From the NCBI GenBank assembly GCA_949127865.1, contig CASBQR010000117.1:1-40552 (forward strand): a DNA stretch of 40,552 nucleotides. Direction: 5' to 3'. The notes below the pieces were generated by a model, which ran no database searches, had not been told where the DNA came from, and worked only from the letters and a program-made list of their open reading frames with translations. Positions 11,817 through 18,698 of this stretch are shown in pieces. Numbering within the stretch: the first letter of the stretch is position 1; every line of letters starts with the position of its first letter. This DNA comes from Synechococcales cyanobacterium PMM_0082 (GTDB lineage Bacteria > Cyanobacteriota > Cyanobacteriia > Pseudanabaenales > Pseudanabaenaceae). The translations under genes and the position numbers were made by a program.

Positions 11817-11903
11817 TTTTGGTTTGAATTTGACAGAATATAGTTTGAACTTTGGTAAAATTTCACATACTTGAGGAAGTCTGCGAGATATTTAGGATTA
11901 CTT

Positions 11904-12593
11904 ATGACTTTAATTGAATGCGTAGTTTGTGGCATAAGCACCGACAAAGTAATTAATCAAAAATGCACTTCATGTATAGAGCTTGAAATTGAAAATCTGG
12001 TTAATCAAATTCAAAAGATTGAAGATAGCCAAAAACTTCAATTAATTGAACCTAATAAAGTTAAAACTAGCAATATTGCCTACAGGGAATCGAACATAAA
12101 ACTTGATTTAACTACTTCCAGAGTTGAAGAAAAACTTTCTGTAAAAATTTCTCAAAATAATCATGATGACGCTTTTGTAGCCATAGGAGTTGGCACGGCA
12201 GCAGGGGTAGCCACATCAGCAACAATAGGTGGAATGGGGTTACTTGTAGCTGGGACTGGCGTAGGTATAGGTCTAGCTCCAATTGCAGCAGTAGGCGCAA
12301 TTACAGGTACAGCAATACATACAGCTAAAAAAGCTATAGAAGAAAAAGATGGTTACGCATTAGGGGCTGTAGTAGCTGGAGCAGGCGTAGGTGCTGGAGT
12401 CTCATCGGTGGTCGGTGGAATGGGTTTAGCAGTCGCTGGTACTGCTGTGGGAATTGGCATGGCTCCCGTTGCGGCAGTAGGAGCAGTTATAGGGTTAGCT
12501 GGTTATGGTATTTTTAAGCTTTTTGGTGGTCAAAGTAATGGTAAAAAGAAAAAGAGAAAAGCCAACAGAATTAAGAAAATTAGTAAATGGTAG
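11904..12593 (+). CDS. Zinc-ribbon / glycine-zipper membrane protein, unknown function
   Basis: A 229-residue protein of unknown function. Residues 6-24 carry two Cys-x-x-Cys pairs (Cys6/9, Cys21/24), like a small zinc ribbon. A charged, probably helical linker covers residues 25-90. Two very similar Gly/Ala-rich hydrophobic modules follow (the first near GGMGLLVAGTGVGIGLAP, the second near GGMGLAVAGTAVGIGMAP), an internal duplication of glycine-zipper type that should insert in membranes. The tail is strongly basic (GKKKKRKANRIKK). I chose ATG 11904, which has TAGGA just upstream, over an in-frame TTG at 11871. Its 3' end overlaps the nuclease-like gene by 56 bases in another frame. Confidence 0.7.
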   Translation: MTLIECVVCGISTDKVINQKCTSCIELEIENLVNQIQKIEDSQKLQLIEPNKVKTSNIAYRESNIKLDLTTSRVEEKLSVKISQNNHDDAFVAIGVGTAAGVATSATIGGMGLLVAGTGVGIGLAPIAAVGAITGTAIHTAKKAIEEKDGYALGAVVAGAGVGAGVSSVVGGMGLAVAGTAVGIGMAPVAAVGAVIGLAGYGIFKLFGGQSNGKKKKRKANRIKKISKW

Positions 12594-12942
12594 TATTAGA
12601 GATGCCATCAATTTTTTTAGAGGAACTCCTGAGCCACCTAAAATTACTCAGCCACCCGAAGGATCTGAAGCTTGGTATAGAGATAAATTGGCTAATGAAT
12701 TAAAGGGTAAAGTAGAAGTTCAAACACCAGTTGGCAGAATTGATATTTTGACTTCCAGAGAAGTTATTGAAGTCAAGAACGTAAAAAGATGGCTTCATGC
12801 AAAAGGACAAGTCAAGGGTTACGGTCATTATTACCCCGAACATAAACTCAGGATTCATCTATTTGGGGCAATGACTGAGAGTAAGCTTAAAACTATTAAA
12901 GAGCATTGCGAGGCTGAAGGAATAGCTTTGAGTTGGGAATAA
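12538..12942 (+). CDS. PD-(D/E)XK nuclease-like protein
   Basis: A 134-residue protein with the core of a restriction-endonuclease-like fold. Glu54 lies in LANEL, Asp69 in GRIDILT, Glu78-x-Lys80 in EVIEVKN, and Gln91 heads QVKGYGHYYPEHKLRIHLFG. The spacing fits the E...D...ExK...Q pattern of PD-(D/E)XK enzymes. Substrate unknown. The start at 12538 lies inside the glycine-zipper gene, in the +1 frame relative to it. A further in-frame ATG at 12505 would only add hydrophobic residues. The overlap falls in an A-rich tract, so a frameshifted single protein is possible. Confidence 0.72.
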   Translation: MVKRKREKPTELRKLVNGSIRDAINFFRGTPEPPKITQPPEGSEAWYRDKLANELKGKVEVQTPVGRIDILTSREVIEVKNVKRWLHAKGQVKGYGHYYPEHKLRIHLFGAMTESKLKTIKEHCEAEGIALSWE

Positions 12943-14132: not shown

Positions 14133-16892
14133 ATGCTTCAAGCCATGGAAGAGTTTTTAGAACATATTGACTACGGGATTTTTGTCATCGCCGTATCACC
14201 TCAATTACATTTTATTTCTGCTAACTCAAATTGTTTGCACTTCTTAAATTCACAAATTAATTCACAAATACTTAGTTCTAAGGGTATACGTGGACTAAAA
14301 CCTGAAGAAATTCTACCAATAGAGTCGGCTCAGAGATTAATCAAAAATTGCGATCGCGCGATCTGTACCGAGCAGAAAGTTGAATATGAAGAAATCTTAA
14401 AATTTCCCGAACAGTCCATAGTGATTTCTGTACATTTATCGCCCTATAAAAATCCAGAAGGAAAAGTTGAAAAAATTATTGGCACTATCCATGATTTAAG
14501 CCAAAACAGACTAGCAAAGTTAAATCAGGAGATGTTTGCCTGTTTAGCGGGTGGTGACTCTGATGCCGTCATCATTGTTGATCGAGATGGCATAGTCAGG
14601 TTTGTGAATCATCCTGCCGAAATTCTATTTAATCGAGATGCAGATGAGTTAGTAGGTGAGCAATTTGGGTTGCCGATTGTCACTGGAGAACTCACAGAAG
14701 TGGATGTTTTAAGACGGGATGGACATTCTACCCCTGCGGAGATGAGAGTCTCTGAAACCCAAGGTGCGGATAAGATTGTTTATATTGTTGCCAGTCTGAA
14801 AGATATTAGTGTGCGTAAACTAGCAGAGGCATCTTTGCGCTTGCGGGATCGTGCTCTTGCTGCTAGTAGTAATGGGATTTTGATTGTTGACGCTATTCAA
14901 TTAGATAACCCCATTATTTACGTTAATCCCAGTTTTGAAAGAATTACAGGCTATAGAGCTAATGAAGTAATTGGTGGAAATTGTCGATTTCTGCAAGGTA
15001 GCGATCGCACCCAAGAGGGCTTAAAAATAATTCGAGAAGCAATCCAAAAAGGGCAGCCCTGTTATACGGTTTTACGCAACTATCGCAAAGATGGAACCCT
15101 ATTTTGGGTGGAACTATGGATTTCTCCTGTGCATAATGAGTTGGGCGAGTTAACTAACTTTATCGGCATCCAAAATGATATTACTTCTAGGTTTTTAGAT
15201 GAGAAGGAACGCCAAGAAAGTGAAGAGGTATTAAGAACAGTTTTAGCTGCGGTTAAAGAGGGAATCACCTTTAGTGATGAGCAAGGTAAATTTATCATCT
15301 TTAATCACGAGATGGAGGAGCTTACAGGGTATTCTCTGAAAGAGGCAAATGCCTGTGGGAATTTTATTAACTTAATTCATCCGCAAGATCAAGGGAGAGC
15401 GATCGCCGAAATATATAAACTGCATCAATTTCAGTCACCCATAGAATCCGAGGTAAAAATTTGTACAAAGGCAGGAATAGTTAAAAATGTTTTAGTTTCT
15501 ACTTCTATGGTTTCGCATAGGGATAAAACCATGTACTTAAGTGCCTATCGTGATATTACTGAACGGAAAAAAGCAGAAGAAAAACTCCGACAAACTACAG
15601 AAAGAGAAAGATTAATCGGATCGATCGCCCTGCGGATTAGAAAATTTATTGATCTAACGGAGATTTTACAAAATACGGTAGAGGAGGTACGGGAATTTTT
15701 GCAAAGCGATCGGGTCTTGATCTATCAATTTATCTGTCAATTTGCAGAAGAAGGCGAAGGTAAAATTGTGGTTGAGTCAGTGCAGAAAGAATTCTTGAGC
15801 ACCCTTGACAAAGAGATTAATGATGATTGCTTTACCGAAGACTATCTTTTCAATTATCCCCAAGGTAAGGTCACAGTTACTAATAATACTGATGATCTGA
15901 ACCTCGATCCCTGTTATACCAAATTTTTAAAAAGGTTTGCCGTAAAAGCTAATTTAGTTGTACCTATTACTTCGGGCGAGAGAGTTTGGGGGTTATTAAT
16001 TGCCCATCAATGTAGTGAAACTAGAATATGGAAGGAAGATGAAATTAACTTATTGATTGAACTAGCTGAGCAAGTGGCGATCGGAATCAGACAAGCGGAA
16101 CTCCTAAATAGAGTCCAGACCTTAAATATGGATTTAGAACGCCAAGTAGAAGAACGAACTTCTAAACTGCAACAAGCTCTAGCCAAGGAAAAGGAATTAG
16201 GAGAAATGAAGTCCCGTTTTGTCTCTATGGCATCCCATGAACTGCGGACACCCCTTGCGATCATTCAAGCATCTAGCGATTTACTAAAGCACTATAACCA
16301 TAAACTTAGTGACCAAAAGCGACTAGAAAAGCTGGATAAGATTCAACTAGAAGTTAGAAACATGACGGAGTTGCTAGAAGATGTCCTCACCATTGGCAAG
16401 ATTGAATTAGGTAAATTACGGATTAATCGCATACCTTTAGATGTAGAAATATTTTGCCAAGAATGTATAGAAGAGTTTAATTCGGCAATTAGTCCTAGCG
16501 ATCGCATTAAGTTTAAAACTCAAAATCGAGGAGGGGGCAAACCTGTTAGCACCTTGATTGATCCTAAATTACTACGTCAGGTAATTATTAACTTTTTGTC
16601 TAATGGCATCAAATACTCTGCAACTAGTCCTAAAGAGGTGAATGTGAATTTATTGTATGATGCTGAAAGCTTTGATTTGGAATTTATCGATCACGGTATT
16701 GGTATTCCTAGGGAAGATCAAGATCGGATATTTGAGTCTTTCCATCGCGCTCATAATGTGGGAAATATCCCAGGAACTGGTTTAGGGCTAGCGATCGCCA
16801 AGGCATCAGTGGAAATGCACAAAGGTAAAATTAAATTAGTTAGTGAAGTTAATGTCGGCACTACCGTTACAATTACAATTCCTTATCAGTAA
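14133..16892 (+). CDS. Multi-sensor histidine kinase with LOV-like and cyanobacteriochrome-like GAF domains
   Basis: A 919-residue soluble sensor kinase. The order is PAS (about 5-130), PAS (about 132-230), LOV-like PAS (about 235-355, GGNCRFLQG with Cys284), PAS (about 365-480), GAF (about 495-665), coiled coil, HisKA (SHELRTP, His702) and HATPase (DHGIGIP, GTGLGLAIA). The LOV-like domain keeps NYRKDGT and FIGIQNDIT, but Val replaces the usual Asn after FW. The GAF domain keeps a DXCF motif (DDCF, Cys566) and a second cysteine exactly 28 residues later (Cys594, DPCY where CH is usual), then VKANLVVPI and WGLLIAHQC. There is no receiver domain. The next gene supplies it with no gap. Flavin and bilin binding are inferred from motifs. 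Confidence 0.9.
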   Translation: MLQAMEEFLEHIDYGIFVIAVSPQLHFISANSNCLHFLNSQINSQILSSKGIRGLKPEEILPIESAQRLIKNCDRAICTEQKVEYEEILKFPEQSIVISVHLSPYKNPEGKVEKIIGTIHDLSQNRLAKLNQEMFACLAGGDSDAVIIVDRDGIVRFVNHPAEILFNRDADELVGEQFGLPIVTGELTEVDVLRRDGHSTPAEMRVSETQGADKIVYIVASLKDISVRKLAEASLRLRDRALAASSNGILIVDAIQLDNPIIYVNPSFERITGYRANEVIGGNCRFLQGSDRTQEGLKIIREAIQKGQPCYTVLRNYRKDGTLFWVELWISPVHNELGELTNFIGIQNDITSRFLDEKERQESEEVLRTVLAAVKEGITFSDEQGKFIIFNHEMEELTGYSLKEANACGNFINLIHPQDQGRAIAEIYKLHQFQSPIESEVKICTKAGIVKNVLVSTSMVSHRDKTMYLSAYRDITERKKAEEKLRQTTERERLIGSIALRIRKFIDLTEILQNTVEEVREFLQSDRVLIYQFICQFAEEGEGKIVVESVQKEFLSTLDKEINDDCFTEDYLFNYPQGKVTVTNNTDDLNLDPCYTKFLKRFAVKANLVVPITSGERVWGLLIAHQCSETRIWKEDEINLLIELAEQVAIGIRQAELLNRVQTLNMDLERQVEERTSKLQQALAKEKELGEMKSRFVSMASHELRTPLAIIQASSDLLKHYNHKLSDQKRLEKLDKIQLEVRNMTELLEDVLTIGKIELGKLRINRIPLDVEIFCQECIEEFNSAISPSDRIKFKTQNRGGGKPVSTLIDPKLLRQVIINFLSNGIKYSATSPKEVNVNLLYDAESFDLEFIDHGIGIPREDQDRIFESFHRAHNVGNIPGTGLGLAIAKASVEMHKGKIKLVSEVNVGTTVTITIPYQ

Positions 16893-16940
16893 GTGGTTCA
16901 CACAGCTCCATTGGCTAGCAAAATGACTAAGGCAAGCAAA

Positions 16941-18698
16941 ATGACTAAAATTTTAGTAATTGAAGACACTGAATCCTTACTAGAGGAAATCGCTGAAACT
17001 TTGAATTTAGAAGGTTTTGAAGTGCAATGTGCTAAAAATGGGGCGATCGGTGTGGAAATTGCTAAAGCATATCTACCTGATTTAATTATTTGTGATGTGA
17101 TGATGCCAGAACTCGATGGCTATAAAACCTTAGAAGCTTTACAAAATTATCCATCTACAGCCACAACTCCTTTTATCTTTCTAACTGCCAAAGCCGATCG
17201 CTCAGATATGCGCCACGGTATGGAACTAGGAGCAGATGACTATTTAACGAAACCTTTTACTACAGGGGAATTACTCGGAGCGATCGCCGCACAAGTAAAA
17301 AAAATTCAAGTAAAAAAAATCCAAATTGTAGAAGCCCAGAATGATACGCGCATGGAAACCGCCGTGCAAGAAGCAATCAGCAAACATGAATATCAAATTC
17401 AAGAATTAAAAAATACTAACGATCCTCTCACCAATCTGCCTAATCGCATTTCATTTCAGCAATATCTTCAAGAATCTATCAGCTATGCCCAAGTTAACCA
17501 TTGCTCCCTAGCTTTAGCTTTTATTGATATAGATGACTTTAATATTGTTAATAACTCCCTAGGGCATAAAATTGGCGATGTTTTATTTAAAGCCATTGCC
17601 GAACGACTACGCAGACACGCCTCTCCCTGCGATCCTTTGGCTCGAATGCAAGGGGATCAGTTTGGCTTGATTTTGATGCAGCCACCTGAACATCTAAAAC
17701 ACACCGTTCAGGAAATTTTAGAAGTTCTATCTAAGCCCTACAGCATATTTGGACATGAGATCTTTATTACTGCTTGTTTGGGGATTACCATTTATCCCCA
17801 AGATCATTTTGAGGCTGCTAATTTAATTAAAAATGCCGATATGGCTCTCTATTACGCCAAATCCCAAGGTCGGAATAATTATAAATTCTATAGCTCTAAC
17901 TTAAATTTGCGCTTGTCCGAACAAATGGCGATCGAAAATAGCCTACGCCGAGCCATCGATCGCAAAGAGTTTCGTCTGTATTATCAACCAATAGTTAATG
18001 CCCTAACCCAAAAAATTATTGGCATAGAAGCTCTAATGCGCTGGCAACATCCAGATTTAGGCATTGTTTTACCCGAAAAGTTTATCCCCCTTGCCGAGAC
18101 TACGGGGATGATTTCGCAACTTACAGAATGGGTGCTGGAGCAAGCTTGTAGACAGCTAAAACTTTGGCATTCATTAGAGCCACAATTCTCAGAATTATAC
18201 ATAGCCGTAAATCTATCTGCCTATAATTTCAAGCACGATAATCTCTTTGCCATGATTTCGGGGGTAATTACATCTGTTGATATTCCCTATAGCCAAGTAG
18301 AACTAGAAATTACGGAAGGTATAGTTATGAAAAACACTAGCCCCACCATTGAGGTGTTATCGGCACTACGCAAACTGGGAATTAAAATTGCGATCGATGA
18401 TTTTGGGGTCGGGTACTCTTCCTTAAGTTACCTTAAGCATTTGCCTGTGGATAAACTCAAAATCGATAAATGTTTCGTGCAAGATATATTAGTGGATAAA
18501 CATGATGCTGTAATTACTGGAGCAATTATTGAACTCGCCCATAGCCTTAATTTGATTGTGATCGCTGAAGGCGTAGAAACTATAGAGCAGGCTAAATTCC
18601 TCCAAGAACGGCAGTGTGAACTGATGCAAGGCTTTTTATTTAGCCCACCCCTACCTGCTGAACAACTTACTCAGCTTTTATTAAGCAAAAAGTTTTGA
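16941..18698 (+). CDS. Response regulator with degenerate GGDEF and EAL domains
   Basis: A 585-residue regulator. The receiver domain (residues 1-120) has phospho-acceptor Asp52 in ICDVMMPELDG and Lys in YLTKPF. The GGDEF domain (about 160-320) has its active site changed to MQGDQF, so cyclase activity is doubtful. The EAL domain (about 335-580) keeps IEALMRW, VNLSAYNF, ITEGIVMKN, DDFGVGYSSLSYL and IAEGVET, so c-di-GMP phosphodiesterase activity is likely. I chose ATG 16941 (AAGG eight bases upstream). The frame is open from GTG 16893, right after the kinase stop, and the stretch between carries a tandem SKMTKA/SKMTK repeat. It is the cognate output of the upstream kinase by position. Confidence 0.88.
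   Translation: MTKILVIEDTESLLEEIAETLNLEGFEVQCAKNGAIGVEIAKAYLPDLIICDVMMPELDGYKTLEALQNYPSTATTPFIFLTAKADRSDMRHGMELGADDYLTKPFTTGELLGAIAAQVKKIQVKKIQIVEAQNDTRMETAVQEAISKHEYQIQELKNTNDPLTNLPNRISFQQYLQESISYAQVNHCSLALAFIDIDDFNIVNNSLGHKIGDVLFKAIAERLRRHASPCDPLARMQGDQFGLILMQPPEHLKHTVQEILEVLSKPYSIFGHEIFITACLGITIYPQDHFEAANLIKNADMALYYAKSQGRNNYKFYSSNLNLRLSEQMAIENSLRRAIDRKEFRLYYQPIVNALTQKIIGIEALMRWQHPDLGIVLPEKFIPLAETTGMISQLTEWVLEQACRQLKLWHSLEPQFSELYIAVNLSAYNFKHDNLFAMISGVITSVDIPYSQVELEITEGIVMKNTSPTIEVLSALRKLGIKIAIDDFGVGYSSLSYLKHLPVDKLKIDKCFVQDILVDKHDAVITGAIIELAHSLNLIVIAEGVETIEQAKFLQERQCELMQGFLFSPPLPAEQLTQLLLSKKF

Follow-up and report, generated by a model that had tools for sequence, protein, structure and literature searches.

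A predicted dual-photosensor histidine kinase and its adjoining putative c-di-GMP phosphodiesterase regulator in Pseudanabaenaceae

The kinase and regulator genes

The window, which is the whole 40,552-nucleotide stretch of contig CASBQR010000117.1 from Synechococcales cyanobacterium PMM_0082 (assembly of 2.7 Mb in 232 contigs, 85% complete), contains adjoining genes for a multi-sensor histidine kinase and a response regulator. The features of the kinase gene, with the evidence for each in brackets, are:

14133..16892, + strand: multi-sensor histidine kinase, 919 aa, PAS-PAS-LOV-PAS-GAF-HisKA-HATPase, ATG start (ORF, Pfam, orthologues)
14163..14510, + strand: N-terminal PAS (PAS_4), kinase residues 11-126 (Pfam)
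14850..15188, + strand: LOV domain, kinase residues 240-352 (Pfam, PDB matches, orthologues, model)
14982..14984, + strand: LOV reactive Cys284 in GGNCRFLQG (orthologue alignment)
15108..15110, + strand: Val326, which replaces a conserved flavin-contact Asn (FWN to FWV), in this genus only (alignment)
15651..16088, + strand: cyanobacteriochrome-type GAF, kinase residues 507-652 (Pfam, PDB matches, model)
15822..15833, + strand: DXCF motif DDCF, residues 564-567, with the second Cys566 (alignment via L117 to TePixJ 3vv4)
15912..15914, + strand: canonical bilin Cys594, followed by Tyr (PDB match, orthologue alignment)
16206..16409, + strand: HisKA dimerisation/phosphoacceptor domain, with His702 at 16236-16238 (Pfam)
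16560..16886, + strand: HATPase_c ATP-binding domain (Pfam)

The features of the regulator gene are:

16941..18698, + strand: REC-GGDEF-EAL response regulator, conserved start ATG 16941 (ORF, Pfam, orthologues)
16950..17285, + strand: receiver domain, phospho-acceptor Asp52 at 17094-17096 (Pfam, alignment)
17418..17879, + strand: GGDEF domain, degenerate QGDQF at 17649-17663, predicted cyclase-dead (Pfam, motif alignment)
17937..18650, + strand: EAL phosphodiesterase domain with intact catalytic motifs (Pfam, motif alignment)

Pfam matches in the kinase comprise PAS domains, the best of which is PAS_9 at residues 247-351 (2.6e-40), as well as GAF at 507-652 (5.5e-21), HisKA at 692-759 (2.5e-13) and HATPase_c at 810-918 (2.1e-25); three further PAS regions are present besides the LOV domain. 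An earlier note on this DNA had described a single kinase that carries a LOV-like domain together with a DXCF-type GAF, and both domains were found by Pfam, by PDB sequence matches and by predicted fold, with Cys284, DDCF 564-567, Cys594, His702 and the receiver Asp52 located where that note had placed them. The orthodox two-component features are present, namely the phospho-accepting His702 within HisKA, the HATPase_c domain, Asp52 of the receiver and the motifs that surround them.

The open frame of the regulator (16893-18698, + strand, GTG, 601 aa) matches Response_reg at residues 20-131, GGDEF at 176-329 and EAL at 349-586 (2.8e-76), all in the numbering of the GTG frame. The earlier note had seen no gap between the kinase stop and the regulator, which holds for this GTG frame only: the orthologues begin MTKIL or MTTIL, corresponding to the ATG at 16941, from which Asp52 is counted and which, as the likely start, lies 48 nt after the kinase stop. 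Direct abutment of the two genes is thus rejected, since it arises only when the open frame is read from its GTG.

Elsewhere in the window (11871-12942), the overlapping frames 11871-12593 and 12505-12942 may represent one frameshift-split protein or two short genes, and their C-terminal part resembles, by eye, a small nuclease-like domain.

Conserved adjacency of kinase and regulator

Orthologues of the kinase are present in 34 of 38 Pseudanabaenaceae genomes, including 29 of the 31 of good quality, and among 386 cyanobacterial genomes sampled across the phylum there was no kinase match at E 1e-120 beyond members of the family. Of the 34 kinase-bearing genomes, 33 have the two genes side by side and in the same orientation (the window, G006, G005, 26 genomes of the main genus, G001 and three g3 genomes), and only in G036 are they apart; the gaps range from -4 to 229 nt and are mostly 8-100 nt. 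A shared genomic neighbourhood was considered as the cause of this adjacency and rejected, since the flanking frames differ between genera and it is therefore the pair itself that is retained. Adjacency at this frequency is not due to chance and supports the assignment of the kinase and the regulator as putative cognate partners. The position of the REC-GGDEF-EAL gene behind the kinase is confirmed, and the c-di-GMP output proposed in the earlier note gains comparative backing through a functional link to the predicted phosphodiesterase regulator. Relatives of the regulator with no adjoining kinase, which speak against the two-component reading, were also seen, at L145, L146 and L147 (genomes G033, G036 and G037).

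The predicted c-di-GMP output

Within the regulator, the receiver keeps its Asp and switch residues, while the GGDEF motif reads QGDQF (mostly QGDEF in the main genus), so that the GG(D/E)EF cyclase active site is absent from the window regulator. All EAL catalytic motifs are present (EAL, N, E, DDFG, K, AEGVE and Q). The combination of a degenerate GGDEF with an intact EAL domain predicts a phosphodiesterase, and breakdown of c-di-GMP is, by these motifs, the likely output of the regulator. The same degeneracy of the GGDEF domain would also suit a GGDEF-EAL region that cooperates with the kinase as a sensor of c-di-GMP or GTP, or as a protein-interaction module, with no phosphodiesterase activity, and the g3 lineage does keep the gene pair while its EAL motifs have decayed; retention of the EAL catalytic residues in the window, in g1, g2 and g4 and in nearly all members of the main genus nevertheless makes this quite improbable.

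The window genome contains 7 EAL and 10 GGDEF matches in addition to c-di-GMP receptors (ComFB-type domains and one MshEN match), which together indicate well-developed c-di-GMP signalling. ComFB domains are abundant in genomes G000, G005, G006 and G029, with 7 to 11 matches per genome and often two per reading frame.

The LOV domain

The best PDB sequence matches of the LOV region are short LOV proteins (7a6p, 6e-39), and LOV structures are likewise the first matches of its AlphaFold model, which is of moderate confidence (mean pLDDT 74.6). Cys284, Asn316 and Gln347 are kept in all 30 of the distinct LOV-bearing orthologues aligned, and the window kinase also retains Asn247. The second flavin-contact Asn, in contrast, is replaced by Val326 in the window kinase and in its sole same-genus relative, but is Asn in all other orthologues; at the equivalent position in the LOV-like domains of the loci sampled, Asn occurs 58 times, His 9 times and Val and Gln twice each. 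The motif around the reactive cysteine varies to some extent among relatives, with DCGFLQG in the kinases of loci L102 and L107, where Gly stands for the Arg of NCRFLQG, and Lys in several others.

Restriction of Val326 to this genus raises the alternative that one sensor alone responds to light here: the LOV domain could be a weak flavin domain or one that senses redox state, which would leave the GAF as the light input. This reading is considered unlikely. The remaining flavin residues (Cys284, Asn316, Gln347 and Asn247) are retained, other LOV-like domains carry His or Gln at the same position, and the equivalent AsLOV2 variant, N492A, binds FMN and completes its photocycle in 54 s versus 80 s (PMC3903614); the N492Q variant gave too small a yield of protein (PMC3903614). 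The idea that the change from Asn to Val destroys the LOV domain finds no support in the photoactive N492A protein. Given that its flavin residues are kept and that the equivalent AsLOV2 variant cycles, the LOV domain is predicted, by analogy, to be probably photoactive despite Val326.

The GAF domain and bilin supply

Cyanobacteriochromes are the best PDB sequence matches of the GAF domain (6oap, 1.7e-37; RcaE 8k9o; TePixJ 3vv4), and structures of this group are also what its predicted model (pLDDT 82.5) resembles. The DDCF motif aligns, through the relative L117, with the DPCF of TePixJ 3vv4, and Cys594 aligns with the canonical bilin cysteine of the cyanobacteriochromes among the PDB matches. 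Both cysteines occur in most orthologues, including those of the window, its genus mate, g2, g3 and G036. Phycoviolobilin is the usual chromophore of DXCF domains, which typically alternate between a blue- and a green-absorbing state (PMC11284453). Two chemically different photosensor domains are predicted, as the earlier note had proposed, but its description of both as blue/violet sensors is imprecise, since a pair of this kind would read blue light together with the blue/green balance.

The search of the window's own assembly (85% complete) yielded no bilin reductase. The enzyme is, however, present in each of the 12 family genomes tested, including that of the genus mate, and the gap is most simply attributed to the incompleteness of the assembly; absence of a bilin supply is accordingly rejected.

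Three PAS regions in addition to the LOV domain could be taken to indicate an ordinary multi-sensor kinase, in which PAS and GAF domains sense oxygen, redox state or small ligands and the photoreceptor-like residues are inherited but unused. Strong conservation of the LOV cysteine across the family, the retention of the two bilin cysteines by most members and the phototrophic, bilin-synthesising nature of the family make this highly improbable. Dual light sensing by the kinase is likely.

Loss of individual sensors among orthologues

Some lineages have lost the LOV sensor and others the bilin sensor, and none of the kinases seen lacks both. The g3 kinases are without a LOV domain but retain DHCF and the canonical Cys, and the kinase of G036 has lost the LOV motif while its GAF is intact; L117, as in g3, has only the GAF intact. 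Conversely, the LOV domain is kept in the main-genus kinases L106 and L108, where both bilin cysteines are missing, in main-genus L110, where the canonical bilin Cys is missing, and in L090 of genus g4, where the DXCF Cys is missing. Since some orthologues are without the LOV domain or without one or both bilin cysteines, not every member of the family is dual-sensing. The single-sensor reading is favoured by lineages in which only the LOV (L106, L108) or only the GAF (g3, L117) is intact, and in lineages with broken GAF cysteines the LOV domain could, in the reverse of the case considered for the window, be the input.

The g3 kinases, which have no LOV domain, group in the kinase tree with LOV-bearing kinases of the window type (support 93/91, below the mark for strong support), which suggests that the absence of the LOV domain in g3 is a secondary loss, and losses of the bilin cysteines fall on separate branches. 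The pattern fits two partly independent light inputs, as judged from few events in the orthologue sequences. At the g3 loci L128, L129 and L130, the receiver of the regulator is kept while the EAL domain has decayed (AQGIE, LDIAE, EVL in one); sensor and output have thus both changed in one lineage.

Recurrence of the sensor pairing in other cyanobacteria

The earlier note had named no described system with this exact layout and had suggested a genome search. Profiles of the window LOV and GAF were run on the 386-genome sample and intersected by ORF. Among the matches listed, at least five further families of cyanobacteria have kinases that hold both a LOV domain and a DXCF GAF; this is a lower bound, and since the GAF profile was built from DXCF domains, it gives no indication of a preference of LOV for DXCF GAFs. 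These kinases (L171/L180, L181, L182, L183/L184 and L185) resemble that of the window in combining the two domains, with both GAF cysteines, in one kinase, but differ in domain order or kinase core (HisKA_2, HEINNP), and the stretches read around them show no adjoining REC-GGDEF-EAL gene. In a tree based on a short alignment and with a weak backbone, their LOV domains lie in clades separate from the Pseudanabaenaceae LOV (98/94, 82/89), which suggests repeated assembly of such kinases. A sensor layout unique to the window family is accordingly rejected, and the novelty proposed in the earlier note narrows to the linkage with a REC-GGDEF-EAL neighbour, which was found only in Pseudanabaenaceae. 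What is particular to the family is the coupling of the sensor pairing to this regulator. Many other cyanobacterial LOV domains reside in one-component LOV-GGDEF-EAL proteins of the SL2 type.

Proposed mechanism and significance

The interpretation that we favour, and regard as rather probable, is a two-component system in which a c-di-GMP phosphodiesterase is under the control of a soluble histidine kinase with two photosensors. The LOV domain would bind FMN and form an adduct at Cys284 in blue light, while the DXCF GAF would carry a bilin on Cys594, probably phycoviolobilin made from phycocyanobilin, and would interconvert a blue- and a green-absorbing state by way of Cys566. The two responses would travel along the helical spine that runs from LOV through PAS and GAF to the kinase and would set the autophosphorylation of His702, from which the phosphoryl group would pass to Asp52 of the adjoining REC-GGDEF-EAL protein, altering its EAL activity and, consequently, the level of c-di-GMP. 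The domains, the active-site residues, the conserved adjacency and the patterns of conservation and loss are directly observed; from these we infer chromophore binding, cognate phosphotransfer, phosphodiesterase activity and integration of the two inputs. Precedents for the individual steps are provided by CdgK/CdgS (PMC9927289), by the LOV-GGDEF-EAL protein SL2 (PMC8846402) and by the blue/green DXCF GAFs (PMC11284453).

More tentative, with judgement tilted slightly against it, is the wider proposition of a natural dual-chromophore kinase in which a flavin LOV and a blue/green bilin switch gate c-di-GMP breakdown and of which single-sensor lineages exist. If this is true, the combination logic (blue dose versus blue/green ratio) would be readable directly from the lineages that have lost one sensor. 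Among the Pseudanabaenaceae orthologues, kinases with both sensors, with the LOV alone and with the GAF alone are all attached to one type of output. The pair would link light colour to c-di-GMP directly, a circuit of a kind that was not found described for Pseudanabaenaceae in the open-access literature searched, and, although its parts are known, their combination is new and open to testing. Signal integration along the kinase spine has been demonstrated to date with YHF, an engineered LOV and heme-PAS kinase that integrates several sensors in one photoreceptor kinase (PMC6798134); natural photosensor proteins of multiple chemistries are candidates for measuring such integration along the histidine-kinase coiled-coil spine.

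Comparison with known systems

A kinase that combines LOV and cyanobacteriochrome domains was not found described in the open-access literature, a scope outside which most subscription journals lie. The DXCF GAF domains of TePixJ and others (3vv4, 4fof) share with the window GAF the fold, the canonical Cys and the DXCF second Cys, but TePixJ is a chemoreceptor-type protein, whereas the window GAF belongs to a kinase and follows a LOV domain. Control of c-di-GMP by bilin photosensors, as predicted here, is known for Cph2 of Synechocystis, which combines two photosensory modules with a part in which the GGDEF is degenerate and the EAL active, and for SesA of Thermosynechococcus (PMC5812497); these proteins are, however, direct fusions with neither a histidine kinase nor a LOV domain. 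SL2 of Synechococcus elongatus is presented in PMC8846402, citing Cao 2010, as a LOV-GGDEF-EAL protein in which a blue-light LOV controls an EAL phosphodiesterase, and thus shares with the window pair the LOV blue-light input, the phosphodiesterase control and the cyanobacterial host, but in that account it is a single protein with a single sensor and without phosphotransfer.

The nearest known analogue is CdgK/CdgS (All2875/All2874) of Anabaena PCC 7120, a co-transcribed multi-PAS/GAF histidine kinase and receiver-linked cyclase, in which one PAS of CdgK is reported to bind FMN and phosphorylation tunes CdgS (PMC9927289). Both systems place a multi-PAS/GAF kinase beside a receiver-linked c-di-GMP enzyme (PMC9927289). 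CdgK, however, is membrane-anchored, with a CHASE domain and a hybrid relay (REC, Hpt), while the window kinase has neither REC nor Hpt, and CdgS is a cyclase and not an EAL enzyme, in contrast to the EAL phosphodiesterase predicted as the output of the window regulator.
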